Assembly (NCBI RefSeq): GCF_003351745.1
Contig: NZ_CP031222.1
Span: 1,222,207-1,286,206, forward strand
Length of the DNA stretch: 64,000 nucleotides
Origin: Aquirhabdus parva
GTDB lineage: Bacteria > Pseudomonadota > Gammaproteobacteria > Pseudomonadales > Moraxellaceae
Reading direction: 5' to 3'
Positions 288-31,270 of the stretch are shown here, piece by piece. The notes under the pieces were generated by a model. It did not search any database. It was not told the DNA's origin and saw only the letters and a program-made list of their open reading frames with translations. The translations under genes were made by a program, and so were the position numbers. How positions within the stretch are numbered: the first letter of the stretch is position 1; each line of letters starts with the position of its first letter.

Positions 288-797
288 GTGAATAAAGCCA
301 TGTCTCAGCTTATTGAATATGCTCAACGTATCGAAGATTCTCAGCTTGCTACAGCATTGCATGAATCTCTGTATGCCTTTCCCCTACTTGAGGGTACCCA
401 TCTTCTCGGTCTTGCTTTGTCCGTTGGACTTTTGGCAATCATCGATTTGCGATTGTTAGGGCTCATTTTGACAGATATCCCTAAGGAGCAATTATTAAAG
501 CAATTAAGACCATGGGTGCTATGGGGATTCGTGGGGGCCTTTCTGACCGGTATTGTTCTACTGGCTTCAGAAGCCGCAAGCATTCTATCGAGTCCACCTT
601 TTGCATTTAAGTTGCTCTTCATTCTTTTAGCCGGCATCAACGCGGTTATTTTTGAGTTTAAAGCGGTTAGGGCTTGGATTTTCAAAGGGGCGGATAGCGT
701 ATCGCGTGATAAATGGGCTGGTGGAATTTCTTTAGGGCTGTGGTCTCTCGTGATTATCTCGGGACGCTTAATTCCTTATTTTATTCCACATGGTTGA
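288..797 (+). CDS. Small multi-pass inner membrane protein, DUF6644-like
   Basis: About 169 residues with four hydrophobic stretches (roughly residues 30-60, 75-97, 105-125 and 143-163) and short polar loops, so a small integral membrane protein. The layout and the early motif LLEGTHLLGLAL resemble the uncharacterised DUF6644 family; the family name is from memory. A His in the first helix (THLLG) could be a metal or haem ligand, but this is a guess. The GTG start at 288 is the longest option; an in-frame ATG at 300 is equally possible and neither has a convincing ribosome-binding site. It is followed 20 bp later by a second gene of similar size and topology, and then by a haem lipoprotein, which suggests a membrane-redox unit. 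Confidence 0.6.
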   Translation: MNKAMSQLIEYAQRIEDSQLATALHESLYAFPLLEGTHLLGLALSVGLLAIIDLRLLGLILTDIPKEQLLKQLRPWVLWGFVGAFLTGIVLLASEAASILSSPPFAFKLLFILLAGINAVIFEFKAVRAWIFKGADSVSRDKWAGGISLGLWSLVIISGRLIPYFIPHG

Positions 798-817: not shown

Positions 818-1291
818 ATGAGTACATTGGATATCGTTCATGCTTACGAGAAAAGCCCTTTAGGCCAGTTTTTTATCAGTATTGATAATGTATGGGTCAT
901 TATTTTCCAGATTGTTCATGTTTTCAGTATTTTGACGGTCTTGACCGCAATCATTGTATTGGCTTTCCATGCTTTGGGATTGTTGCCCATTGGGGAGAGT
1001 AACGAGCGCCTAGGGAAGCTTTTTTTTAAGGTGACATGGATTGGCGTTATTGGTGCAATCGTCAGTGGCAGCTTATTGTTTTTGACGAGTGCAACGCACT
1101 ATTTTACCAATCGTGCTTTTCCGATTAAATTGATTTTATTGGTAGGTGCAATTGTCGTGCAGTTTGTCATTTTTAAACGTTTTTTTCTGCGCAAGCCGTC
1201 TTATTTTCTTTCAACCAAAGTGGTTGCCGTACTTTCGGTTTTTCTTTGGTTCGCGACGGGTTTTGCGGGCCGCGCGATTGGATTTGTATGA
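818..1291 (+). CDS. Small multi-pass inner membrane protein, second DUF6644-like copy
   Basis: A 157-residue protein with four predicted membrane helices, similar in size, helix spacing and C-terminal half to the preceding gene (both have an FKLLFILL/IKLILLVG-type third helix and end near an SGR or AGR motif before a final aromatic stretch). A good ribosome-binding site (GCAGGAG) precedes the ATG. It probably arose by old duplication of its neighbour. The first helix carries the motif QIVHVFS, whose His sits where the neighbour has THLLG. The next gene starts 7 bp after its stop, so all three genes are likely cotranscribed. Function is unknown; a membrane electron carrier or heterodimeric anchor for the cytochrome is an inference. 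Confidence 0.6.
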   Translation: MSTLDIVHAYEKSPLGQFFISIDNVWVIIFQIVHVFSILTVLTAIIVLAFHALGLLPIGESNERLGKLFFKVTWIGVIGAIVSGSLLFLTSATHYFTNRAFPIKLILLVGAIVVQFVIFKRFFLRKPSYFLSTKVVAVLSVFLWFATGFAGRAIGFV

Positions 1292-1298
1292 GGCCAAC

Positions 1299-1871
1299 AT
1301 GAAAAAGACAGCAATTGCGTTACTTGCACTTTTTACCTTATGGCCGCTCAGTGCCTGTCAGAAGCAGCCACAGTCTAACGCTCAAACATCTTCAGAGCTC
1401 CCCCAACCCGTAGCCAGCGTTCATGATTTGATGCTGACTATTGTGGATCCTACAGCGGATAGTCTATGGGATTCGGTAGGCACAATTGTGACCAAGGCCG
1501 GTATCGAAGAGCGTCGACCCAAAAATGATGCTGAGTGGGAGGTTTTGCGTCAAAAGGCAATCTTATTAACCGAATCTGCCAATCTGCTTGCGCTCAAGGG
1601 GCGGCGAGTGGTTAACCCGGGTCAGATTACGAGTGATACTGGTATCGAAGGTGTACTTGGTCCAGAAGGGATTCAAAAAGAGGTGGATGCTCATTTTGAT
1701 CAATTCAGAGATAAAGCTTTGGCATTCCAGTTGGCATCTATCAAAACATTACGCGCAATTGAAAAGAAGGATCCCGAGGAGTTTGTTAATGTCGGTGGTC
1801 AACTGGAGCGTGCTTGTGAAGGGTGCCATGTCGCATTCTGGTATCCCCCTTCAGCAAAAACGAAGCAATAA
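1299..1871 (+). CDS. Lipoprotein with a single C-terminal c-type haem site (cytochrome c'/c556-like)
   Basis: 190 residues. The N-terminus is a lipoprotein signal with lipobox LSAC, acylated Cys about residue 20, followed by a Ser/Gln-rich linker. The one haem-binding motif CEGCH (about 173-177) lies near the C-terminus, as in four-helix cytochromes c' and c556, and the middle is predicted helical. It is therefore likely a membrane-tethered periplasmic monohaem cytochrome. The longer open frame beginning at 1146 lies inside the preceding gene in another frame and is not used; ATG 1299 gives an intact lipoprotein signal. It shares the cluster with two small membrane proteins and a second cytochrome c'. 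Confidence 0.75.
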   Translation: MKKTAIALLALFTLWPLSACQKQPQSNAQTSSELPQPVASVHDLMLTIVDPTADSLWDSVGTIVTKAGIEERRPKNDAEWEVLRQKAILLTESANLLALKGRRVVNPGQITSDTGIEGVLGPEGIQKEVDAHFDQFRDKALAFQLASIKTLRAIEKKDPEEFVNVGGQLERACEGCHVAFWYPPSAKTKQ

Positions 1872-1963: not shown

Positions 1964-2500
1964 ATGAAATATTATTCATTGTGTTTGGCAAGTTTGTTAT
2001 CGACAGCGGCGCCTTGTTTTGCAGCCGATGCCGTAAGCGCTCCAGCATCTCCGGCTCTAACTGCAGCTCAGGCTCAACCAGCAGCACGCGGTCCCTCTCT
2101 GACGCTAGCACTTGAAGCTGCGCAGAAAGCGATTGATACCTGTCAGGCACTCGATCAAAAAATATCCGTGAGCGTGCTTGATTCAGGTTCAGTGCTTAAA
2201 GTGTTGCTTGCTTCGGATGGTGCATCATCACGTGGTGTACAGTCCAGCCAAAATAAAGCAATTACTGCTTTGGCCTTTGGTACATCATCATCAAAAGTAG
2301 CCGATGTGGTCAAAGCAGATAGCAAGCTGAGTGAGAAGTTGGCGGCAAACCCTAACTTCAATACCCGTGCTGGAGCGGTCTTGATTAAGGTTGGTGATGA
2401 GGTTATCGGCGCGATTGGTGTTGGGGGTGCGCGAGGCAGTGAAAAGGATGAAGCCTGTGCGGTAGCGGGTTTGAATGCAATCCAAAGTCGAGTGAAGTAA
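1964..2500 (+). CDS. Secreted haem-binding protein, HbpS/GlcG family
   Basis: 178 residues with a cleavable signal peptide (cut about residue 20, after CFA), an Ala/Pro-rich linker, then a single GlcG/HbpS-type domain (Pfam PF03928 family) from about residue 45. Family signs are the opening helix SLTLALEAAQKAID, the strand SVSVLDSGS and the closing IGAIGVGGARGSEKDEACA, where the glycine-rich loop and the conserved Asp/Glu precede the last helix. HbpS-type proteins bind haem in some bacteria, while many relatives have no proven ligand. The periplasmic location and the neighbouring haem proteins fit a role in haem handling, but the ligand is not shown by the sequence. Confidence 0.75.
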   Translation: MKYYSLCLASLLSTAAPCFAADAVSAPASPALTAAQAQPAARGPSLTLALEAAQKAIDTCQALDQKISVSVLDSGSVLKVLLASDGASSRGVQSSQNKAITALAFGTSSSKVADVVKADSKLSEKLAANPNFNTRAGAVLIKVGDEVIGAIGVGGARGSEKDEACAVAGLNAIQSRVK

Positions 2501-3024: not shown

Positions 3025-3477
3025 ATGTTTACCCGATCATCTGATCATATCTTTAACCGATCTTTTGTTAAATCTGTTGCCGTCGCTGTAATTCTATTTA
3101 CGACTGCAGGTTCGCAGTCTGCATCTGCTCACCATGCCTTCGCGGCAGAATATGATGGTAAGCAACCCATTCATCTCACCGGTGTGGTGACTAAAGCACA
3201 GTGGGTCAATCCACACAGTTGGCTATATGCGGATGTCAAAGATGCTGATGGCAAGGTCACGAACTGGGGGTTTGAGTTTGGTGCGCCATTCTCTTTGAAA
3301 GAAAAAGGGCTAAATAAGACGACTCTTCCTGTTGGTACTGTAGTGGTCGTGGATGGGTTTCGTGCCAAGAGCGGACAAAACTATGCTTATGCATCAACCG
3401 TCACCTTAGCAGATGGCCGCGTGTTCCAAACCGGTGGTGCGGGTGATGCACCGACAAGCGCAGGTGCAAAACAATGA
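3025..3477 (+). CDS. DUF6152 family secreted protein with predicted N-terminal His-His after cleavage
   Basis: 150 residues. A strong ribosome-binding site (AAGGAGATAAGCC-ATG) fixes the start. The signal peptide ends in an Ala-Ser-Ala cleavage motif at residues 33-35, so the mature protein should begin HHAFAAEYDG. The remaining ~110 residues are a small beta-rich domain with motifs LTGVVTKAQWVNPHSW and VVVVDGFRAKSG, typical of the uncharacterised DUF6152 family. An N-terminal His plus a second internal His (NPH, residue 64) is the layout of copper-binding histidine-brace proteins; that reading is an inference. Its stop overlaps the start of the next gene (ATGA), so the two are translationally coupled. 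It is the first gene behind a sigma-54 promoter. Confidence 0.75.
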   Translation: MFTRSSDHIFNRSFVKSVAVAVILFTTAGSQSASAHHAFAAEYDGKQPIHLTGVVTKAQWVNPHSWLYADVKDADGKVTNWGFEFGAPFSLKEKGLNKTTLPVGTVVVVDGFRAKSGQNYAYASTVTLADGRVFQTGGAGDAPTSAGAKQ

Positions 3478-4325
3478 TGAATAGAAAACCTCATTTCGTA
3501 ATAAAGACATCATTTGGTAGCACATTAACAAGTAGTTTGATCGTTAGTGTTCTCCTTTCATTGGGTAGCTTTGCTTTGCCTATTCATGGTTATGCGGCGG
3601 AAAAAACTGCGAGTCGAGAGTTAAGTCCAATAAGAATTCCTAGACTTGCAAACGGTAAACCTGATTTTTCTGGCATCTGGCAAACAACCAGTGCTGCGGA
3701 ATATGATTTGGAGCCGCACTCAACACGTAAAGATGCCCCACCCAGTGCTGGCGTCATTGAAGGTCATGGGACGATTCCATACCTGCCAGCTGCACTTGAA
3801 GAACGAAAAAAGAACTTTGAGGCACGTGGTACCGATGATCCTCGGTTGAAATGTTTTACTTTGGGTGTGCCACGAGGGACTTATTATCCCGAACCTTTTC
3901 AAATATTTCAGCGCAAGCAAGATCTGACCATTCTTTATCAATTCGGTGATTCCGTACGGACCATTTATACCAATGATACGAATCATCCTGACGATGCCGA
4001 TGCAAATGATTGGTGGTTGGGTGACTCACGTGGGCACTATGAAGGGGATACGTTGGTTGTTGATGTCAAAGATTTCAACGATCAGACATGGCTAGATCGT
4101 TCTGGAAACTTCCACAGTGATGCACTGCATGTTGTTGAGCGTTGGAAGTTCCTTGATGCAAATACGATTGAATATAAAGCGACTTTGGATGATGCCAAAG
4201 TCTATAGCCGTCCTTGGTCTCTCAGCGTCATTCTCCATCGTCATCGCGAGAAAGACTTCCAGTTGATCGAAAACTACTGCTATACGCTCGATTACGACCA
4301 GTACTACCCATTTCCCAAGCCGTGA
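3474..4325 (+). CDS. Secreted protein of unknown function, PDFSGIW type, copy 1
   Basis: 283 residues with a long signal peptide (cut about residue 41, after GYA). The mature part opens with the motif IPRLANGKPDFSGIW and ends with a beta-rich half containing WWLGDSRGHYEGDTLVVDV, a phrase shared with the next gene and with a broad family of uncharacterised secreted proteins often found beside DUF6152 genes. A single Cys occurs in KCFTLGVPRG and another near the C-terminus (YCYTLDY); they could pair. No catalytic signature is recognised. It overlaps the DUF6152 stop by 4 bp; the ATG at 3474 and the ATG at 3477 are both possible. Function unknown; a binding or lipocalin-like role is speculation. 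Confidence 0.65.
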   Translation: MMNRKPHFVIKTSFGSTLTSSLIVSVLLSLGSFALPIHGYAAEKTASRELSPIRIPRLANGKPDFSGIWQTTSAAEYDLEPHSTRKDAPPSAGVIEGHGTIPYLPAALEERKKNFEARGTDDPRLKCFTLGVPRGTYYPEPFQIFQRKQDLTILYQFGDSVRTIYTNDTNHPDDADANDWWLGDSRGHYEGDTLVVDVKDFNDQTWLDRSGNFHSDALHVVERWKFLDANTIEYKATLDDAKVYSRPWSLSVILHRHREKDFQLIENYCYTLDYDQYYPFPKP

Positions 4326-4376: not shown

Positions 4377-5387
4377 ATGAAAAAAATGAAGAGCCTAAAG
4401 CAGAAATGCTTGGTAGCAAGTACACTGGTCCTTTTTCCGTTAGCCGTCAATGCTGCTGAAGATGGTCAAGCCGCATCTGCTGCTGTAGTCAAACCAATTG
4501 TTTCGTCAGAGTCAAAGCCTAAAGCTGAAGGCGATAACATCCGCTGGGAGAAAAAATATGTCAATGTCCCAGAGGGGCAGTGGACAGGTCCGCGTCTAGC
4601 CGATGGGCAGCCTGATGTGCAAGGACATTGGTCCAATACGGTTTCAAACCATGCAAATTTTACTGATCCACAAGGCGGGATTCCGGGTGATCCACAAGGC
4701 CGCCCGCCTAAGGGAACTCGCGCTGATCGTGCACCCAGTCGTGTAAGTGATCCTGCTGATGGTGAGATACCTTATCAGCCGTGGGCACGTGCAAAGCAGC
4801 AAGAGTTTTTGCAATATTTCTTTAATGCTATTAAGCCTGAGTATATTGAGCCATTGGCACGATGTGCACCTGCTGGTGTACCCAAGTCTTTTTACTGGCA
4901 CGGTTATGAGATTCGTCAGTATCCAGGTTATGTGGTCTTTCTATTTAGCTCTGGAACACGTGTAATACACTTAGATGGTAAGCCACACTTACCCGAAAAT
5001 ATAAAGTTGTGGAACGCGGATTCGCGTGGACATTGGGAGGGTAATACACTGGTTGTTGATGTGACGAACAACAATGGTAAAGCGCGCTTTAGTCGTACTG
5101 GAGATTTCTCCAGTGAAAATGTCCATATTCAAGAGAAGTATATTTTTGCTAATGATGGTAGCCGTTATACCTATCAAGCCTTGGTGACTGATCCTACGGT
5201 TTATACCCGGCCTTGGACGGTGACTATTCCAGCACGTCGCTATACCGCGAAGGATAAGCCAAATGGCTGGCACTTTGAGGTTTTGCTGAATACACGAGAT
5301 GCCAAAGGAGGAGAACCGATCATTGAGCGCGATGAGCGGATCTGCGTTGAAAACAATGGTGGCTTTGGTCAAGGCGTAAAACACTAA
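4377..5387 (+). CDS. Secreted protein of unknown function, PDFSGIW-type relative, copy 2
   Basis: 336 residues, signal peptide cut about residue 26 (VNA-AED). It shares the order of motifs with the preceding protein: an entry motif RLADGQPDVQGHW in place of PDFSGIW, a Cys motif (RCAPAGVPKS), then NADSRGHWEGNTLVVDVTN, a sensor-like FSRTGDF segment and TRPWTV before the C-terminus. Identity is low but the colinearity indicates common descent. It carries an extra Pro/Gly-rich stretch (about residues 95-130). A ribosome-binding site (GTGAGGAATTC-ATG) supports the start. It belongs to the same operon as the DUF6152 gene, 51 bp downstream of copy 1. Biochemical role unknown. Confidence 0.65.
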   Translation: MKKMKSLKQKCLVASTLVLFPLAVNAAEDGQAASAAVVKPIVSSESKPKAEGDNIRWEKKYVNVPEGQWTGPRLADGQPDVQGHWSNTVSNHANFTDPQGGIPGDPQGRPPKGTRADRAPSRVSDPADGEIPYQPWARAKQQEFLQYFFNAIKPEYIEPLARCAPAGVPKSFYWHGYEIRQYPGYVVFLFSSGTRVIHLDGKPHLPENIKLWNADSRGHWEGNTLVVDVTNNNGKARFSRTGDFSSENVHIQEKYIFANDGSRYTYQALVTDPTVYTRPWTVTIPARRYTAKDKPNGWHFEVLLNTRDAKGGEPIIERDERICVENNGGFGQGVKH

Positions 5388-5542: not shown

Positions 5543-6016
5543 GTGAATACAAAACATCTTATTGTTGTTTTTTGTGCAATTGTAATTGCTGGGGCTGTTT
5601 ATGCGGAGAGTCGACCTGAAGAGATTATTAAATCAAGACAGGCAGCTTATGCTTTTCTCGGATGGAATAGCGCCAAAATCAGAGCAGCACTTGATCCAGC
5701 AGGAACATTTAATAAAGAAGAGGTGATCAAATCAGCTAATGCAATTCAAGCGATTGCAAACTCTGGTTTAGGGGCTTTATATGTTAAAGGAACCGATCAA
5801 GGGACTGGTTTTCATGAGACCAAGCTTAAATCTGAGGCCTTTGATCCTGCTTATGCCAGTAAATTAGCTGAAGTAGCTGGGAACTTTAACAAGGAAGCCA
5901 ATACGCTGGCCGTAGTTGCCGCAACTGGAAACAAAGAGGCAATTAAAGATCAGTATTCCAAGCTATCGGCAACTTGCAAAGGGTGTCACGATAATTTTAG
6001 AGCAAAGAATAACTAA
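5543..6016 (+). CDS. Cytochrome c' family protein
   Basis: 157 residues, signal peptide cut about residue 21 (VYA-ESR), then an all-helical domain starting EEIIKSRQAAY and ending with the haem motif CKGCH (about 145-149) close to the C-terminus. This is the normal architecture of class II cytochromes c', which bind NO or CO or carry electrons in the periplasm. The start is GTG with an AAGGGGG ribosome-binding site. It faces a cytochrome b561 gene across 50 bp, a pairing common for this family, suggesting electron transfer from the membrane b-type haem to the periplasmic c-type haem. Whether it is cotranscribed with the preceding operon is unclear: 155 bp separate them. Confidence 0.85.
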   Translation: MNTKHLIVVFCAIVIAGAVYAESRPEEIIKSRQAAYAFLGWNSAKIRAALDPAGTFNKEEVIKSANAIQAIANSGLGALYVKGTDQGTGFHETKLKSEAFDPAYASKLAEVAGNFNKEANTLAVVAATGNKEAIKDQYSKLSATCKGCHDNFRAKNN

Positions 6017-6066: not shown

Positions 6067-6747
6067 TTAGAAATTTGGCGTTGATGTGACAGCTAACGGT
6101 TGAGGCTTAGAAATCCAAGAACCGGTCATGATGTAGGTCACGAATATTGCAATTGAGATTGATAAAATTAATGCAAAAGCTCCGCCGAGATATTTTTTAT
6201 CCATTGATTCAGAGTGGCTTTTTCCTCCAGTAATCATTGGCCTGATAATGGGATGTTTTTTGATCCATACATGAATGCTAATCGCGATTAAATGTACGAT
6301 GATCCAGCCGAGGATCAGATACTCTAAGAATCGATGGACATGCGTTAAACGATCGCTGATTTCTTTATTGATGAGTTCCGCTAGCGGACCAAAAAATGTG
6401 CTGTCATCATTTGAAAATAGCCCTGTAGCGACTTGTATCATCAGTATGCCAAGCAATAACAACACAGCAAGTGCTCCGAAGGGATTATGTCCCTCAGCTG
6501 TCCATTTCCCTTCTATGTACAGTTTTAAGCGTTTGGGCGTCGGAAAAAACGCCGTGAATCGAGAATGCCTAGCTCCAATGATCCCCCACATCAATCTAAA
6601 TACCAGTAATCCTCCAATGGTGATGCCGAATTGACGATGTAAATCCATCGCATTGAATTTTTCACTGATAAATCCCCCGATGATCGCAATGACGAGAAGC
6701 CAGTGAAATAAACGTGTGGGTAAATCCCATATTTGATTGGATTTCAC
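6067..6747 (-). CDS. Cytochrome b561-type di-haem membrane protein
   Basis: 226 residues with four core membrane helices and a fifth at the C-terminus (about 190-212). The start WDLPTRLFHWLLV, the pair LHRQFG, and the third and fourth helix His residues (THVHRFLEY and HLIAISIHVW) are the haem ligands and neighbours expected for bacterial cytochrome b561/HupC-like proteins. It probably takes electrons from quinol and passes them to a periplasmic acceptor, most simply the convergent cytochrome c'. The upstream side is the extremely AT-rich spacer that also carries the promoter of the first receptor on the other strand. Confidence 0.85.
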   Translation of the reverse strand: MKSNQIWDLPTRLFHWLLVIAIIGGFISEKFNAMDLHRQFGITIGGLLVFRLMWGIIGARHSRFTAFFPTPKRLKLYIEGKWTAEGHNPFGALAVLLLLGILMIQVATGLFSNDDSTFFGPLAELINKEISDRLTHVHRFLEYLILGWIIVHLIAISIHVWIKKHPIIRPMITGGKSHSESMDKKYLGGAFALILSISIAIFVTYIMTGSWISKPQPLAVTSTPNF

Positions 6748-7102: not shown

Positions 7103-9895
7103 GTGAACAATTATGTTAATGAATTTTTGCTGGAAAAAAGTAAGAAGGTATCGCTTTTTAGTTATAAGCCAATTACCTTGGCTGTGTTGGCAATATTATT
7201 TCAGCTTTCAGCAAGTCAAATGTCCTTTGCCGCAGATGATTCGGTTATTGCTGATTTAAAGTCCCAAATTGAACAACTCAAGAAGGAGCTCGCTGCAAGT
7301 CAACAAAAGAACAATCCACAAACGGATTTGGCTGCATCGAATACAAATGTTCTAGCTTCATCTCCTGATCAGCAGGTTAAAAAAGATGAAGAGGAGGCAA
7401 AAAAAATTGATGGCGTTGTGGTCACAGGTAAGCGTCAGCGTAAACAAAAAGTCTTGCTCGATAACCTTAAAGATGTTCCTAAATCGGTCTCAATTGTCTC
7501 AGGGGAGGAGTTGGATCGTTTGGGTGCTAATAACATTACTGAGGTCCTTAGACGAGTGGGTAATGTCAACTTTAACTACGGTAACCCTAGAACAGGTAGC
7601 TTGACTTTACGGGGGATTACAACGGGTTCAAGTGATCAAATTGACCCAACCATTGGTACCGTACTTGATGGCGTAAGTCTGGGTTATACACCATTGGTGA
7701 ATGGCTATGTTTTTACTGATATCGATACGGTTGACGTCACTCGGGGTCCTCAAGGAACACAAGGGGGTAAGCCCTCAAATATTGGCAGAATTACGTTTAA
7801 TACCAAAGCACCGACTTTCACCCCAGAAGCTAATTTTGCTTTAACGTATGGTGAGTGGAATCGATTGATTACTTCTGCTGTAGTGGGCGGCCCAGTGATT
7901 GACGATCTATTGGCTTGGCGGGGAACTTTTCAGCGTGAACAGGGTGACGGTGCATATGGGAATACCTTCCCCGATTTAAAAGGGCGAGCCAGTTATCAAA
8001 ACGTTGATCGCACTTTTGGTCGCGTCCAATTTTTACTGACACCAACCGATGATTTTACTGCCAAGCTGAGCCTAGAAAACCAGCCTAAAGGCAGTGAGTT
8101 TGTTAATGGTTTAACCGTAAAACATGCTGAACCTACCGTATTTAGTGATGGAGTAGCGCGTCCCGTGGCTTCAGTCGATACGACTTATAAGAAGTATCTG
8201 CGGCCTTGGTTTAATAATGATCCGACACTTTGGAATACCGCGCGTGATTACTATAACAACCCTGTGGATGTGGATAATAACGGTGCCATCATTACCGGGT
8301 CGAAAGGTGCAACGCTTAATTTAAATTGGCATGTAGCGGGCCATGATCTGCAATCTATTACAGGCTATCGTAGCCATTGGTTTAGTGCCGCCAATGACGA
8401 AGGAACACCTTTTGATATTACCAAGAGCGGGGGGTACATTACGGATTACTCCCAGATTAGCCAAGAGTTTCGTATATCTTCGGAAAAAGGCAAGTTTGTT
8501 GACTACCTCGCTGGATTATATTTCTTAAGCACGGATAATGATTCGATTAGCCGTACGCGTTATGGCAATGATGCTGGCGCATTCCAAGCGAGTGATGCGC
8601 TGTATAACAGCCTGGCAACAACAGGTTCAGGTCAGACAATCCTGAAAGACTCTTTGAATTTTGCTTATAAAGGCACGCAGACTTACGTCAAAAATAAGAG
8701 TGCGGCTCTGTTTGCGCAAGCCGATTGGCATTTAAGCGATCCTTTAACTTTAAATACGGGTGTCCGTTTTTCTCATGAGGATCGTGAAACTTCCCAAGGT
8801 GTGCTTTTACTAGACCCGGGTGTAGGCAGTGATTTCACGACCGCTTTTGGGAATAGCTCAAGTACCAAAGCCATTGCTAAAGGAGGCGCGGCAGCTGCTG
8901 ATCGGCTTGCTGCACGATATTTCGGTTCGACTTGGGCCAACTTAAGTACAGCGCAGCAGAACCAGTTGCTCTCTGGGGCTCAGGTTCGTAACGGTACTCT
9001 AACACCTGCATCACTTTATCCAGTGACAGATGCGCCAGCTTGGGAGGGTAATATTAAAAGCTGGAATGCAAGTTTAACGAATAAGTTTAATGATACGGTC
9101 TCTGCCTATGGAACATTGCAGTACGGCGAGAAAGGGGGGATGTCTCAGTTTGCGGTTAATGGGACGACATCTACTGTTGATAAGGAGCAGACCAATGGTT
9201 ATGAATTGGGCTTACGTCTAAATTTATTGAATAATACCTTAACCATCAATTCGGACATTTTTCTTAATGACATTAAGAATTTCCAAACGACAGTCAATAT
9301 TCCTGATCCGATCGGAACAGCAGCATTCTTAGCGAGCAATCCCAGTGTTTCACTTGCCGATGCACAGCAGTTTCAGAGTGTAGTTGGAAACTTGCCTGGG
9401 GTGCGGGTTAAGGGGCTTGAAATTGATGCAGCGTACACAGGCTTACAGAATCTAACGCTCAGTTTATCGGCTGCATATAACGATGCGTACTATTCTAAGG
9501 ATACGTACTTGGCTAAACCCAACGAAGTGGACAGTACTGGGAAGGTCTTTCAGAAGTACTATAACGCGAAAGGCAGCGTGCTCAACTCTGCGCCCAAGTT
9601 TACTGCAAATTTAGCGGCTGATTATAAGGTTCAAGTCTTTGGTGATAAGGTTTTTCATACCAGCGCTGATTACAAATTTACCAGTAGTTATGCGACCAGT
9701 CCTTCGTCCTACGATGTTTATGATGCGTATGGATTACTAGATCTGGGTGTCGGTATCGGACGAAAAGATGGTCTATTTGACGTCTCGGTGGTCGTGAAGA
9801 ACCTGCTCAACACAAGCTACCATACCGATGGTTGGAATTCTTACACGCCTAATATCCCCCGTTGGTTTGGGGTGACTTTTAAATCCAAGCTCTAA
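7103..9895 (+). CDS. TonB-dependent outer membrane receptor 1, with N-terminal coiled coil
   Basis: 930 residues. The GTG start follows CTGGGGAG. A long signal peptide ends about residue 43 (SFA). Then comes a predicted coiled coil (about 47-70, rich in Leu, Lys and Gln), a charged linker, a TonB box-like DGVVVTG and the plug domain (about 115-240; LRGITTGS, DVTRGPQGTQGG). The rest is a 22-strand barrel ending in an aromatic residue pattern FGVTFKSKL. The usual plug phrase GRNTTGGAIN is replaced by GKPSNIGRITF. The coiled coil between signal and TonB box is unusual. Barrel segments such as the SRTRYGNDAGAF loop are shared with the next receptor, so they are paralogues. Substrate unknown; transcription is probably sigma-54 dependent. 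Confidence 0.9.
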   Translation: MNNYVNEFLLEKSKKVSLFSYKPITLAVLAILFQLSASQMSFAADDSVIADLKSQIEQLKKELAASQQKNNPQTDLAASNTNVLASSPDQQVKKDEEEAKKIDGVVVTGKRQRKQKVLLDNLKDVPKSVSIVSGEELDRLGANNITEVLRRVGNVNFNYGNPRTGSLTLRGITTGSSDQIDPTIGTVLDGVSLGYTPLVNGYVFTDIDTVDVTRGPQGTQGGKPSNIGRITFNTKAPTFTPEANFALTYGEWNRLITSAVVGGPVIDDLLAWRGTFQREQGDGAYGNTFPDLKGRASYQNVDRTFGRVQFLLTPTDDFTAKLSLENQPKGSEFVNGLTVKHAEPTVFSDGVARPVASVDTTYKKYLRPWFNNDPTLWNTARDYYNNPVDVDNNGAIITGSKGATLNLNWHVAGHDLQSITGYRSHWFSAANDEGTPFDITKSGGYITDYSQISQEFRISSEKGKFVDYLAGLYFLSTDNDSISRTRYGNDAGAFQASDALYNSLATTGSGQTILKDSLNFAYKGTQTYVKNKSAALFAQADWHLSDPLTLNTGVRFSHEDRETSQGVLLLDPGVGSDFTTAFGNSSSTKAIAKGGAAAADRLAARYFGSTWANLSTAQQNQLLSGAQVRNGTLTPASLYPVTDAPAWEGNIKSWNASLTNKFNDTVSAYGTLQYGEKGGMSQFAVNGTTSTVDKEQTNGYELGLRLNLLNNTLTINSDIFLNDIKNFQTTVNIPDPIGTAAFLASNPSVSLADAQQFQSVVGNLPGVRVKGLEIDAAYTGLQNLTLSLSAAYNDAYYSKDTYLAKPNEVDSTGKVFQKYYNAKGSVLNSAPKFTANLAADYKVQVFGDKVFHTSADYKFTSSYATSPSSYDVYDAYGLLDLGVGIGRKDGLFDVSVVVKNLLNTSYHTDGWNSYTPNIPRWFGVTFKSKL

Positions 9896-10105: not shown

Positions 10106-10206
10106 AGGCTGAAAAATTCCTTTATTTGACTGCTTGGTAGATCTTTTGATTAATTAAGTATTTATAAAATAATAATATAAATTTCATGTAGATAAATTTT
10201 TAAGAG

Positions 10207-10222
10207 TGGCATACCCGTTGCA
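10207..10222 (+). promoter_or_regulatory. Sigma-54 (-24/-12) promoter of TonB-dependent receptor 2
   Basis: TGGCATA-CCCG-TTGCA fits the consensus; GG (10208-10209) and GC (10220-10221) are exactly 10 bases apart. The transcript would start near 10233. This rules out the GTG at 10206 as start codon, because it lies in the promoter. Confidence 0.85.
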
Positions 10223-10265
10223 ATCCATAGGCTTATCCCGTTTTCATAAGCCATTAGGATTTACG

Positions 10266-12752
10266 ATGTTTTCTAACGATCAAACTTTACATAAACGTTT
10301 TCAGCGCAATTTATTATCTTCTGCGGTTATGCTTGCCAGTTTATCCATGGGTTTCTCTGCACTGAGTTTTGCAGCTGAGGGAGATGTGCCTCCTGTAAGC
10401 AATGGCACATCGTCTCAAAATAGTAATACCCCTGTAGATTCTGATACTTCACAACATATTGAATCAATTGTTGTGACTTCGCGTAATCGTGAGGAGCTGG
10501 CACAAAATATCCCAGTACCTGTTTCAGTCATTGGCAGTAAGCAGCTAGATCGCGATGGCATCGTGAGTGTCGATGATTTGACCCGTAAAGCTCCGGGACT
10601 TACGGCAACCACACCGAATGCACGCCGTACGGGGATTTCCATTCGGGGGATAGGAAAGGCCAGTGGGAATGACAATATGGAGGCCGCAGTTGGCGTGATT
10701 GTCGACAATGTTTTCTTATCTCATGTGGGAATGTCTTATCAGGATTTTACCGATCTAGATCGTGTTGAAGTTTTACGTGGTCCACAAGGAACGTTGCTGG
10801 GCAAGAACACGACGATGGGTGCGATTAACTATGTCAGTAAGTTACCCAGCTTTAAACCACAAGGCTCATTTGAGGTTGAAGGTGGCCTGAACAAAGAAGC
10901 GCTTAAACTGAAAGCCTCAAGATCTGATGCTTTGATTGATGATGTTTTGGCATATCGTGCCTCCGTATTTGTTGATCAGCAGCAGGGCGATTTAAAAAAT
11001 ATTAGCCCTTTGGGAGGTAATGTTCATGAGAAAAATCGCTTCGGTGGTCGCCTACAGTTTTTATGGAAGCCAACTGAAAATTTGAACATCCGATTGAATT
11101 TGGATGAAGCGCAAAGCAAAGAATATAGCAACACTAAGCCATTTATGATTGACCCACTGACTTTTGCGGATGGATCGTCTCGCACAGCATCTAATAAACT
11201 GACCTATACCTCTCGATTATCGCGTGATTATTTTGGGGGTTATGTGCCAGTAGTCGGTGATCGGTCTTGGAATGAAATCGATGTCGCGCAGCTTCGACCA
11301 TTGATCACCAATAACAGTGGCGAATCTTTGACGATTGATTGGGATCTGGGTGATTTAACCTTCACGTCCATTACGGCTGGGCGTAAGCTGCATTTTGATG
11401 CGAACAATGACAGTGATCAAACCAAATTTGATATCAATCAGGGCGGAACCCTGGTTGACCATGAGCAATTCTCTCAAGAGTTCCGCTTAACCTCGGCGCC
11501 AAGTAAGGTGCTGGATTATCAGGTGGGCTTGTATTACTTACATGATTCAACTGAGTCAACTTCCCGTACGCTTTATGGTCAAGACGCAGGTGCATTTTAT
11601 GCGTCGAATAGCCAATACAGTTCGTTGAAATCAAATAAATATTTACTCAGTTCATCTCTTAATCAAGTGTATTCCACCACACTGACGACTCCACAAACGG
11701 ATAGCGTTGCTGCTTTTGGACAGGCCAATTGGCATTTGAATGATAAGGCAACATTGACTTTTGGTTTACGTGATACCAATGAAAAGAAGAGTAGTGATAG
11801 CCAAAAAAATGCCAGTTTCTATGATGGGTCAGCATTGGTTTCAACAGGAAATGCTGCTGCTGATGCAATCCGTGCATCACAGCTTGGCACTGTTTATGGC
11901 TTAGTTCATGGGCAAGATATCAACAATAACTCGGTCTCTTGGCTGTTGAGTCCGAGCTATCAGCTTGATAAAGATGTTTTGCTCTACGCTTCGGCCTCAT
12001 CCGGTCAGAAATCAGGCTCAGTTCAATTTAAGTCGAATGGCACACCGTTGAATGTTGATCCTGAAAAATCCTTGGATTTTGAGCTGGGTGTAAAAAGCTT
12101 ACTTTTGGACAAGCGGTTGTTGCTAAACGTCAATTTGTATCAAACCACGGTGAAAGATTACCAAGCAACAACCAGCATATTGGATTCTACGTCATCGACA
12201 GGTTATAGCTCTGTGCTCGGGAATATTCCTGAAATTCGTGCACGTGGTGTAGAAATTGAAGGAAGTTACGCTGCATCGCATGACCTAAATTTAAACTTCT
12301 CTTTAGCTTATAACGATGCGATCTATTCAGATTGGTCTACCGCAACGTGCCCTGCTGAAATTGTCAGTGTGGCTGTCTGTAATAACACCGGTAAACAAGT
12401 TGTCGGGGCACCTAAAGTTACGGGTGTAGTGGGAGCAGATTACCAGACCCATTTGGGCTTTGGTGGTTTGAGTTTCCATAGTTATATCAATGCTGTGGCG
12501 CGTACGTCCCAAAATCTGGAGTCCCAACTATCCATATATGGTCGTCAAGCAGGTTATACCCTGGTTGATGGCGGACTCGGTGTGGTTGGCAATTACAACA
12601 AAAATAAATTCGAAGTCGATCTGATCGCAAAGAATTTATTTGATACCAAATATACGACGAGTATCAATGGCTTCAGTAACTCCTCTCCTGTGGGTTATGA
12701 CGGCATCGGCGCACGTCGTTATATCGGTCTAGTATTTAAAACTAAATATTAA
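10266..12752 (+). CDS. TonB-dependent outer membrane receptor 2
   Basis: 828 residues from ATG 10266, which has a TAGGA ribosome-binding site and a normal signal peptide (cut about residue 35, LSFA). The longer frame from GTG 10206 overlaps the sigma-54 promoter and is rejected. Plug domain about residues 60-190 with a TonB box-like ESIVVTSR, RGIGKAS, and the canonical LRGPQGTLLGKNTTMGAIN; barrel to the C-terminal IGLVFKTKY. It is colinear with receptor 1: the loops SRTLYGQDAGAFYAS, SVQFKSNGT and the helix-proximal ARGVEIEG/SLAYNDAIYS have obvious counterparts. Cysteines near residue 700 (TCP and VCN) may form an extracellular disulfide. Substrate unknown. Confidence 0.92.
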   Translation: MFSNDQTLHKRFQRNLLSSAVMLASLSMGFSALSFAAEGDVPPVSNGTSSQNSNTPVDSDTSQHIESIVVTSRNREELAQNIPVPVSVIGSKQLDRDGIVSVDDLTRKAPGLTATTPNARRTGISIRGIGKASGNDNMEAAVGVIVDNVFLSHVGMSYQDFTDLDRVEVLRGPQGTLLGKNTTMGAINYVSKLPSFKPQGSFEVEGGLNKEALKLKASRSDALIDDVLAYRASVFVDQQQGDLKNISPLGGNVHEKNRFGGRLQFLWKPTENLNIRLNLDEAQSKEYSNTKPFMIDPLTFADGSSRTASNKLTYTSRLSRDYFGGYVPVVGDRSWNEIDVAQLRPLITNNSGESLTIDWDLGDLTFTSITAGRKLHFDANNDSDQTKFDINQGGTLVDHEQFSQEFRLTSAPSKVLDYQVGLYYLHDSTESTSRTLYGQDAGAFYASNSQYSSLKSNKYLLSSSLNQVYSTTLTTPQTDSVAAFGQANWHLNDKATLTFGLRDTNEKKSSDSQKNASFYDGSALVSTGNAAADAIRASQLGTVYGLVHGQDINNNSVSWLLSPSYQLDKDVLLYASASSGQKSGSVQFKSNGTPLNVDPEKSLDFELGVKSLLLDKRLLLNVNLYQTTVKDYQATTSILDSTSSTGYSSVLGNIPEIRARGVEIEGSYAASHDLNLNFSLAYNDAIYSDWSTATCPAEIVSVAVCNNTGKQVVGAPKVTGVVGADYQTHLGFGGLSFHSYINAVARTSQNLESQLSIYGRQAGYTLVDGGLGVVGNYNKNKFEVDLIAKNLFDTKYTTSINGFSNSSPVGYDGIGARRYIGLVFKTKY

Positions 12753-28928: not shown

Positions 28929-28996
28929 GCGATTTAAAGATTCTATATGAAGATGATCAATCAGCTTAATTGCAACGTAAAAAAGGATTTTTGGTC

Positions 28997-31270
28997 ATGT
29001 CAGAACCTGTAACGATTGCTCAAGATCTGACTCAAAAAGTCATTTTTGACAAGGTTGCTTTTATTGGGCTAGGTTTAATTGGTTCGAGCCTTGCCCGCGT
29101 ATTGCGTGCCAATCATTTGGCGCGTCAGATTGTGGCGAGTACTCGTTCACAAACGACACTGGACCAAGCCCAAACACTTGGGGTGATTGATGCTGGTTTT
29201 TCCGATCCAATTGAAGCGGTTAAAGATGCCGATCTCATCGTACTTGCAATGCCGGTCGGTGCAACTGAAGCCGTATTACGTTTGATCGCAAGTTCAATTC
29301 GGACCGATGCCATTATTACAGATGTTGGTAGCACGAAAGGGAACGTTGTTCAGGCTGCAATCAATGTTTTTGGCGATCAACTGCCCAGCGGCTTTGTCCC
29401 AGCACATCCGATTGCAGGTGCTGAAAAAAGTGGTGTGATGGCCGGTAAGGTTGATTTATTTCGCCATCATAAAGTCATTGTGACCCCACTGGACTCGACC
29501 AGTGTTGAGGCTTTAGAAAAAGTCACCATGATGTGGAAGTCTGCAGGTGCAGACGTTTTGAAGATGACAGTTGCTGATCATGATGAAATTTTAGCGCATA
29601 CCAGTCATTTACCTCACTTACTTGCTTTTAACCTCGTTGATCAGCTTGCAAGTCGTGCTGATAATCTTGATATTTTCCGTTTTGCGGCTGGTGGTTTTCG
29701 AGATTTTACCCGTATTGCTGCCAGTGATCCGCAGATGTGGCATGATATTTTTCTCGCCAATAAAAAAGCAATTCTCGCTGCTATCGATGGCTTCACAGGA
29801 CAACTGCAACAACTGAAGTCCTTGATTGAACATGATGATTCGACATCGTTAATCGGTACGTTGACTAGAGCCCAAGCTGCACGGACTCACTTTACCCACA
29901 TGATTGAAAAAACGCCTTATTTGGAATCCGCTATGAGTAACAGTACCACATCTCAACAATTTATCGTTCAACCGGGCGGCACCATGTCAGGAACTCTTAC
30001 GATTCCTGGCGATAAGTCGGTGTCACATCGTTCGATTATGTTGGGTGCACTTGCAGAGGGTACAACGTATGTCACTGGTTTCTTAGAGGGTGAAGACGCA
30101 CTCGCGACCCTGCAGGCATTTCGAGATATGGGTGTCGTGATCACCGATCCAAAGAATGGTGAAGTCACCATTCATGGTGTTGGTTTACAGGGTTTGAAGC
30201 CACCTAAAGGTGCTCTGTATATGGGTAACTCTGGGACAACGACACGTCTCATTTCTGGCATTTTGTCAGCACAACCGTTTGATACCGTGCTGACAGGTGA
30301 CCCTTCACTGACCAAACGTCCGATGGAGCGTATCGCTAAGCCCTTACGCTTAATGGGCGCAAAAATTCAAACCACGGGTGAAAAGGGCACACCGCCGATC
30401 AGCATCAGTGGTGGTCAAGCATTACAGGGTATTGATTATTTGTTGCCTATGGCCAGTGCTCAAGTGAAGTCCGGTATTTTGCTTGCGGCCTTATGGGCCA
30501 AGGGTAAAACCACTGTGACGGAGCCAGAGCCGACACGTGATCATACCGAGCGCATGCTTACGGCTTTTGGTTATCCTGTCAGTGTTGATGGCAATAAGGT
30601 GACCATTGAAGGAGGGGGGAAGCTCACAGCGACTAATATTCAAGTTCCTGCGGATATCTCCTCCGCGACCTTCTTTATGGTTGCGGCAGCAATTACTGCC
30701 AACTCCAACGTGGTACTGCGTCAAGTCGGTATAAATCCAACGCGTACAGGCGTTTTAGAGATATTGAAGCAAATGGGTGCCAACATTAGCCTTGAAAATC
30801 AAGCCATGGCTGGTGGCGAGCCAGTTGCCGATATTCGTATCCAAGCGGGAACATTAAAAGGCATTCATATTCCTGAAGATCAGGTACCACTGGCGATTGA
30901 TGAGTTCCCTGCATTGTTTATCGCCGCTGCATGTGCAGAAGGACGTACGGTACTCACGGGTGCTGCCGAGCTTCGTGTGAAAGAGTCTGATCGTATCCAA
31001 GTGATGGCGGATGGCTTGCGCATTTTAGGCGTGGATTGCACGCCAACTGAAGATGGGATGATTATTGAAGGTAAGGGCAGTCAGGGTGCTGTATTTGGTT
31101 CGGGTACCATCGAGAGTCATCATGATCATCGTATCGCGATGAGTTTTGCAATAGCGGGATTACGAGCGAGCGGAGTGATCACGATTAACGGGACTGAAAC
31201 TGTAGCGACTAGTTTTCCAAATTTCACGGTGTTGGCACAACAGGCGGGGCTGACCATTGGAGTGAAGTGA
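28997..31270 (+). CDS. tyrA-aroA: Fused prephenate dehydrogenase (TyrA) and EPSP synthase (AroA)
   Basis: 757 residues from ATG 28997 (AAGGA nine bases before); TTG 28970 has no support. Residues 1 to about 305 are TyrA: NAD-binding VAFIGLGLIGSS (Gly at 24, 26 and 29), VGSTKGN, HPIAGAEKSG and HTSHLPHL. After a short linker, residues about 318-757 are AroA: IPGDKSVSHRS, LYMGNSGTTTRL and KESDRI, all substrate-binding motifs. It therefore catalyses two separate aromatic pathway steps. The fusion occurs in Acinetobacter and Pseudomonas. An internal Met at 313, preceded by GGAATCCGCT, lies exactly at the ancestral AroA start and may allow a free AroA product. A strong terminator follows. Confidence 0.96.
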   Translation: MSEPVTIAQDLTQKVIFDKVAFIGLGLIGSSLARVLRANHLARQIVASTRSQTTLDQAQTLGVIDAGFSDPIEAVKDADLIVLAMPVGATEAVLRLIASSIRTDAIITDVGSTKGNVVQAAINVFGDQLPSGFVPAHPIAGAEKSGVMAGKVDLFRHHKVIVTPLDSTSVEALEKVTMMWKSAGADVLKMTVADHDEILAHTSHLPHLLAFNLVDQLASRADNLDIFRFAAGGFRDFTRIAASDPQMWHDIFLANKKAILAAIDGFTGQLQQLKSLIEHDDSTSLIGTLTRAQAARTHFTHMIEKTPYLESAMSNSTTSQQFIVQPGGTMSGTLTIPGDKSVSHRSIMLGALAEGTTYVTGFLEGEDALATLQAFRDMGVVITDPKNGEVTIHGVGLQGLKPPKGALYMGNSGTTTRLISGILSAQPFDTVLTGDPSLTKRPMERIAKPLRLMGAKIQTTGEKGTPPISISGGQALQGIDYLLPMASAQVKSGILLAALWAKGKTTVTEPEPTRDHTERMLTAFGYPVSVDGNKVTIEGGGKLTATNIQVPADISSATFFMVAAAITANSNVVLRQVGINPTRTGVLEILKQMGANISLENQAMAGGEPVADIRIQAGTLKGIHIPEDQVPLAIDEFPALFIAAACAEGRTVLTGAAELRVKESDRIQVMADGLRILGVDCTPTEDGMIIEGKGSQGAVFGSGTIESHHDHRIAMSFAIAGLRASGVITINGTETVATSFPNFTVLAQQAGLTIGVK

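Follow-up and report, generated by a model that had tools for sequence, protein, structure and literature searches.

The window, that is, the whole analysed stretch of 64,000 nucleotides from Aquirhabdus parva, contains an open reading frame (ORF) with an ATG start at positions 3025-3477, which encodes a protein of 150 amino acids. This and all other features described below lie on the forward strand unless stated otherwise. A Pfam scan assigns the protein to the family DUF6152 (PF19649; E 3.7e-28, 97.9 bits against the curated cut-off of 27); at E up to 1 no other Pfam family is matched, CopC and DUF1775 included. Searches of PDB sequences with DUF6152 gave no match with E < 0.1 and no convincing relative. 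Residues 1-35 (3025..3129) form a signal peptide predicted by rule (a hydrophobic stretch followed by A-x-A), which ends with ASA at residues 33-35. The mature domain of 115 amino acids (3130..3474) is predicted to be an OB-fold barrel. The only histidines of the ORF product are residues 8, 36, 37, 50 and 64, with His8 inside the signal peptide; cysteine is absent and the sole methionine is Met1.

Upstream of this ORF lie two genes of DUF6644 membrane proteins. The first (288..797) matches PF20349 at E 6.9e-8, above the cut-off, and the second (818..1291) at E 0.001, below it; iterated profiles built from the two retrieve the same 64 ORFs. They are followed by a cytochrome c-like lipoprotein (1299..1871; CEGCH motif, lipobox-like LSAC, start chosen by eye, PF01322 at E 0.005, below the cut-off) and by an HbpS-like protein (1964..2500; PF03928, E 1.8e-26). 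Downstream, a gene named here GxW1 (3474..4325) shares its first 4 bases with the end of the DUF6152 ORF and encodes a secreted, weakly calycin-like protein without a Pfam family. GxW2 (4377..5387) belongs to the same family, and iterated profiles of GxW1 and GxW2 retrieve the same 194 ORFs. Then come cytochrome c' (5543..6016; PF01322, E 9.1e-24), cytochrome b561 on the reverse strand (6067..6747; PF01292, E 1.8e-20) and two TonB-dependent receptors (7103..9895 and 10206..12752; PF00593 and PF07715 in both). A first-pass annotation of this DNA had described redox genes around DUF6152; the Pfam scan of the window bears this out with cytochromes and others, some of which are also found in several related loci. 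Elsewhere in the window, a 766-aa ORF at 28970-31270 looks by eye like a fusion of prephenate dehydrogenase with EPSP synthase.

Distribution and conservation of the locus

The distribution of DUF6152 is patchy. A phylum-wide sample of 398 genomes contains 42 with the family. The copy in the window is the single match in the Aquirhabdus parva genome, and it is also the only one among 61 genomes sampled from the taxonomic family of the host. Copy number ranges from 1 to 100 (the highest values being 100, 98 and 94) in the 30 genomes behind fetched loci, which were picked for containing DUF6152 and are mostly MAGs labelled acidobacterial, without quality figures; the genome with 98 copies is labelled Gammaproteobacteria. 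Paralogue expansion with up to 100 matches per genome is seen in the genomes of loci L031, L044, L050-L102 and L091 (handles G502-G531).

Gene order was compared in 19 distinct hand-picked loci (20 were picked, and L008 sits within L116), which are labelled as Methylophilus, Methylomonas, Methylococcales, Derxia, Duganella and sphingomonads, among others. GxW1 occurs beside DUF6152 in 18 of them, GxW2 is likewise found in 18 and DUF6644 in 13; the cytochrome c lipoprotein directly follows DUF6644 in 9. In one further arrangement, L110:7628-8839 (+), cytochrome b561 is fused with a YceI-like domain and adjoins two DUF6152 copies.

Predicted exported N terminus and invariant histidines

The codons of His36 and His37 (3130..3135) open the mature domain, and these residues are referred to below as His1 and His2. 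H1, H2, P28 and H29 are identical in all 314 rows of an alignment made of 313 unique fetched mature sequences with HH, those from copy-rich genomes included, and the window query; N27 is retained in 303/314 and G69 in 310/314. Mean column identity among 90 non-redundant members is 35%. Mature N27-P28-H29 corresponds to N62-P63-H64 (3208..3216) at the turn between strands 1 and 2. The recurrence of HH and NPH within DUF6152, which the first-pass annotation had stated, is thereby confirmed. Its proposal of additional conserved-looking histidines holds for His64 of the NPH motif (H29) and fails for His50 (3172..3174, mature residue 15), which lies outside the conserved columns. His50 was also considered as a metal ligand and ruled out because its column is not conserved.

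The HH pair was counted in several samples, in each case by scripts searching near the start of the DUF6152 domain and among relatives that are not independent. The first 30 loci (the window and 29 others) contain 32 DUF6152 ORFs, all with HH behind a hydrophobic stretch. After the addition of loci found by patterns, 109 loci yield 140 DUF6152 ORFs, 139 of them with HH; 79 of these loci were found by patterns containing HH or NPH and are a biased sample. The Pfam-derived set comprises 60 non-own hits from 398 genomes, fetched as 58 regions with 60 DUF6152 ORFs. HH follows a hydrophobic stretch in 60/60, by a profile that itself takes in the HH columns, and residue -1 is Ala in 59 and Ser in 1. 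Two ORFs of the final set do not contain HH (L091 and L270), because both start at a contig or region end.

Signal peptide cleavage directly before HH is predicted by the (-3,-1) rule, so that the exported protein, once mature, would begin with His, as the first-pass annotation had read from the ASA site. The residue before H1 is Ala, Ser or Gly in 311/311 sequences checked. Agreement with the rule at the bond before HH is found in 240/240 relatives, at offsets +1 to +4 in 0/240, and at the upstream bonds in 16 to 156 of 240, depending on the offset. At +5 (AFA/A in the window, residue 40) the rule is satisfied in 205/240. Cleavage elsewhere, which would speak against a free histidine, was looked for by rule in the same relatives: strict [AV]xA is found before HH in 184/240, at +5 in 55 and at any other offset in at most 57. 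Twin-arginine-like motifs occur in 26/240 relatives and lipobox-like ones in 10/240. For comparison, PMC12537917 states that 2.6% of the signal-peptide proteins used to train SignalP 6.0 have His at the start of the mature chain. The invariant H1, H2, P28 and H29, together with the small residue at -1, support a putative histidine brace in DUF6152 at the level of sequence.

Fold and geometry of the histidines

An AlphaFold2 model of the mature protein, built with 90 aligned members, has a mean pLDDT of 91.6 and a pTM of 0.84. Its elements are strands 8-26, 29-37 and 43-49, helix 53-58 and strands 71-79 and 85-93, in agreement with a predicted OB fold, a barrel of five strands in which a helix separates the third from the fourth. 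H29 opens strand 2 directly after the tight turn between strands 1 and 2. Structure comparison by VIA-align gives Z 9.7 and an rmsd of 2.1 Å over 81 residues with PriB (4apv). In total, 124 of 997 chains reach Z >= 8, and the matches mostly span residues 10-97, not the HH segment. PriB and SSB are among the 50 best VIA-align matches (Z 8.1 to 9.7). The 50 best Foldseek matches are OB-fold proteins, lysyl-tRNA synthetase, SSB, PriB, CST and RPA among them (best E 1.9e-3). CopC, LPMO, CusF and CcmE do not appear among the 50 best matches of either program, taken from longer lists.

Coevolution analysis by inverse covariance and by pseudo-likelihood returns the pairs expected of a barrel (19-37, 21-35, 35-45, 17-71, 12-78 and 48-86). 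In 5/5 runs with the two methods, residues 3-9 have their strongest partner in position 31, which lies two residues beyond H29. The second-ranked partner is position 56 in both full-set runs and other positions in subsets. The top single N-terminal coupling ranks 12 to 44 depending on the run, and the pairs vary (9-27 has rank 13 in one run versus 84 in another). Enrichment of couplings in the patch has p 0.002 with all sequences, 0.48 in the main subfamily and 0.08 without the gap group. We rely here solely on the recurring first place of position 31, because the patch test is significant in the full set alone; relatedness of the sequences may also give rise to such couplings. C-alpha restraint models, which are under-determined, can satisfy the couplings. 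In the 10 best of 40, residues 1 and 29 are 9 to 29 Å apart when only the topology is imposed and 10 to 25 Å apart once couplings are added, and residues 2 and 29 are 9 to 22 Å apart. By coevolution, the residues that follow HH come close to NPH, which makes convergence of the histidines plausible. It is somewhat probable that His1, His2 and His29 come together in the folded protein.

DUF6644, a proposed membrane partner

DUF6644 appears to be a membrane family of four helices (judged by eye) with a conserved His (90/94), Lys (89/94) and Trp (93/94). Its Pfam model (E up to 0.001) is matched in 29 of the 398 genomes, in 21 of them above the cut-off, and all 29 fall within the 42 genomes with DUF6152. 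An own iterated profile detects DUF6644 within 5 kb in 40/58 Pfam-derived regions, and GxW is found within this distance in 21/58; five regions (L117, L163, L164, L166 and L167) have neither. Of 70 loci longer than 8 kb, 69 have GxW and 16 have DUF6644 within 4 kb. In 60 regions of copy-rich, mainly acidobacterial genomes, 79/81 DUF6152 copies have GxW and 5/81 have DUF6644 within 3 kb. DUF6644 is a neighbour of most proteobacterial DUF6152 copies and not a general one, because of this last count and because 13/42 DUF6152 genomes have no Pfam match to DUF6644.

Profile comparison by hhalign relates DUF6644 to the CopD family with a probability of 91.7 for short members and 12.1 for long ones (reversed controls 0.3 and 0.1); as a further control, short versus long members of the CopD family score 88.5. 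In the alignment of DUF6644 and CopD profiles the common His and Lys coincide. The Pfam scan of the window proteins gave no match to CopD (PF05425), and the likeness of DUF6644 is at the profile level. The short CopD-family members closest to DUF6644 are presumably HemJ-like. Literature searches of open-licence papers found no paper on DUF6644, nor any on HemJ with CopD and heme.

GxW proteins, fusions and wider neighbourhood

No Pfam or NCBIfam family matches the GxW proteins. In Foldseek their AlphaFold2 model (pLDDT 93.0) weakly resembles retinol- and fatty-acid-binding proteins (best E 1.9e-3), which points weakly to a calycin-like fold. In an alignment of 59 members C85, G141 and V153 are invariant, and no histidine is conserved. 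Two genes unite the families of the locus: L010:685-1830 (-) fuses DUF6152 with GxW, and L012:97-1806 (-) fuses DUF6152, GxW and a DUF6644-like membrane segment, which is detected by Pfam at E 0.0016, below the cut-off, and also by the own profile.

Apart from DUF6644 and GxW, the neighbours of DUF6152 are diverse. In loci L110-L151, the scan covered 149 of the 165 neighbour genes between 110 and 600 aa (these loci have 194 neighbour genes whatever their size, and the 58 regions together have 263), and the most frequent families, such as GMC oxidoreductase and FAD-binding, reach 4/149. In loci L228-L287, where 150 of 190 genes were scanned (those < 120 aa excluded and long ones trimmed to 420 aa), metallo-beta-lactamase reaches 7/150 and PQQ 5/150. 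No copper gene stands out as a frequent neighbour among the 25 of 134 and the 25 of 131 families listed for the two scans.

Proposed function

An invariant histidine pair at the predicted exported N terminus, combined with one invariant histidine inside the chain, resembles an N-terminal-histidine metal site. DUF6152 could be an exported OB-fold protein with a metal, most likely copper, at its N-terminal His, working here with a CopD-like partner, DUF6644; the probability of this reading is roughly 55%. We infer that the protein is exported and its signal peptide cut directly before His-His, and that the freed amino group and the side chain of His1, together with His2 and His29 of the NPH turn, would converge and bind a transition metal on the ligand-binding side of the OB barrel. 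Here, and beside most proteobacterial copies, DUF6152 would work with DUF6644, handing over metal or electrons at the inner membrane. In the locus of the window, GxW proteins and the c-type cytochrome may take part. The invariance of HH and PH against the low mean identity, the OB model, the co-occurrence with DUF6644 and the three-way fusion argue for this reading, as do the residues before HH, the coevolution of position 31 and the likeness of DUF6644 to CopD. Several findings speak against it: up to 100 copies per genome would be odd for a plain copper importer, and the best score of DUF6644 with short members, presumably HemJ-like, may point to haem. The wide range of distances in the C-alpha models, structural matches that mostly leave out the HH segment, the rarity of DUF6644 beside copies in copy-rich genomes, the diverse neighbours listed and the absence of a conserved His from GxW also count against it. 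By analogy copper is the preferred metal, and nickel, zinc or haem would also be compatible.

The site could be occupied by nickel, zinc or cobalt instead of copper, for example for capture and delivery, which is a minor but real possibility. The identity of the metal is not readable from the DUF6152 sequence. DUF4198 binds Ni2+ via its N-terminal His and His18, and the thermal shift of DUF6702 with Ni2+ is +17.2 °C, with shifts also produced by Co2+ and Cu2+ (PMC12537917). Against these metals stands the resemblance of DUF6644 to CopD, a family in which the member studied, YcnJ, deals with copper (PMC13344008).

An enzymatic role is conceivable, given how many copies some genomes carry, how constantly GxW adjoins DUF6152 and how varied its redox and catabolic neighbours are. 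DUF6152 might be an N-terminal-His copper redox enzyme of a new fold class, the OB barrel, with GxW binding or presenting the substrate and with DUF6644 and cytochrome c supplying electrons where present; the DUF6152-GxW module would then have multiplied in Acidobacteriota, to as many as about 100 copies per genome, for varied substrates. Such an enzyme is unlikely.

Handling of haem or another tetrapyrrole is improbable. The N-terminal His and His29 would serve as axial ligands, DUF6644 would be a b-haem membrane protein, and the OB fold would play the part that it has in CcmE, a haem chaperone with this fold. Genes of an HbpS-like protein, cytochrome c', cytochrome c and b561 adjoin DUF6152, some of them being kept in several related loci, and the nearest relatives of DUF6644 in the CopD family (short and presumably HemJ-like) fit such a role, as do its conserved His and Lys. 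However, HbpS and cytochromes are infrequent among the neighbour families listed (cytochrome c in 2/150 at L228-L287, none among the 25 of 134 listed at L110-L151), and haem ligation does not require a free N-terminal His-His.

The least probable reading, in which no metal is involved and the invariant histidines support the structure or contact a protein or an organic ligand, agrees with the position of PH at a tight turn of the model and with its matches to OB folds, which are mostly ligand-binding domains, but is disfavoured because the invariance of His1 and His2 right at the predicted freed N terminus (314/314) has no easy explanation if the amino group plays no part.

If the copper-protein reading is true, an unnamed Pfam family, found in the sampled genomes and often with tens of copies per acidobacterial MAG, becomes a testable metalloprotein family, and DUF6644 and the GxW family receive their first functional context. 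An N-terminal-histidine site would also be placed on an OB fold, where literature searches found no such report: among open-licence papers, none was found on DUF6152 or on an OB fold with a histidine brace.

Comparison with known systems

The OB proteins PriB and SSB, which are cytoplasmic nucleic-acid binders, share with DUF6152 the fold, as the match to 4apv described above indicates. The part matched with PriB 4apv begins at residue 11, and the alignment has 16% identity.

Copper histidine-brace proteins (LPMO, CopC, PmoB, Bim1/X325) have beta-sandwich or cupredoxin-type folds. DUF6152 is similar to them in being secreted, in having His freed as the first residue and in possessing at least one further invariant His. 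It differs in its OB-fold model and in a second residue that is also an invariant His, and copper in DUF6152 is putative. On the sequences compared, DUF6152 is apparently not a homologue of CopC, LPMO or PmoB, because the model is an OB barrel and DUF6152 is the sole Pfam match. The first-pass annotation had likened the protein to CopC, LPMO and methane monooxygenase: the likeness holds for the predicted N-terminal His and an internal invariant His, and does not extend to sequence homology or, judging by the model, to the fold, so its interpretation is partly supported. A review of the histidine brace (PMC10952591) names LPMO classes, pMMO/pAMO, Bim1/X325 and CopC/PmoF1/YcnI variants, and a term search of its text does not find the words OB fold.

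Four further families with N-terminal His, DUF4198, DUF6702, Ang-1 and Ang-2, are described in the signal-strapping paper (PMC12537917), and a term search of its main text finds neither DUF6152 nor DUF6644. Like DUF6152, they are little-known secreted families. By the counts of that paper the N-terminal His is conserved in 79% of DUF4198, 65% of DUF6702 and 100% of Ang-2. Unlike DUF6152, DUF4198, DUF6702 and the Ang proteins are reported there to have beta-sandwich folds. The anglerases of the same paper are joined to a membrane permease, which is comparable to the frequent pairing of DUF6152 with DUF6644.

A similar arrangement is known for CopC-CopD and YcnI-YcnJ. DUF6152-DUF6644 differs from these pairs in that DUF6152 has no CopC or DUF1775 Pfam match and DUF6644 is a Pfam family of its own. 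In Bacillus subtilis, YcnJ requires both its Cu(II)-binding CopC domain and the His of its CopD domain (PMC13344008; also PMC12154828). What DUF6152-DUF6644 has in common with these systems is a protein predicted to be exported with an N-terminal His, whose gene adjoins or is fused with that of a membrane protein in which a His is conserved.
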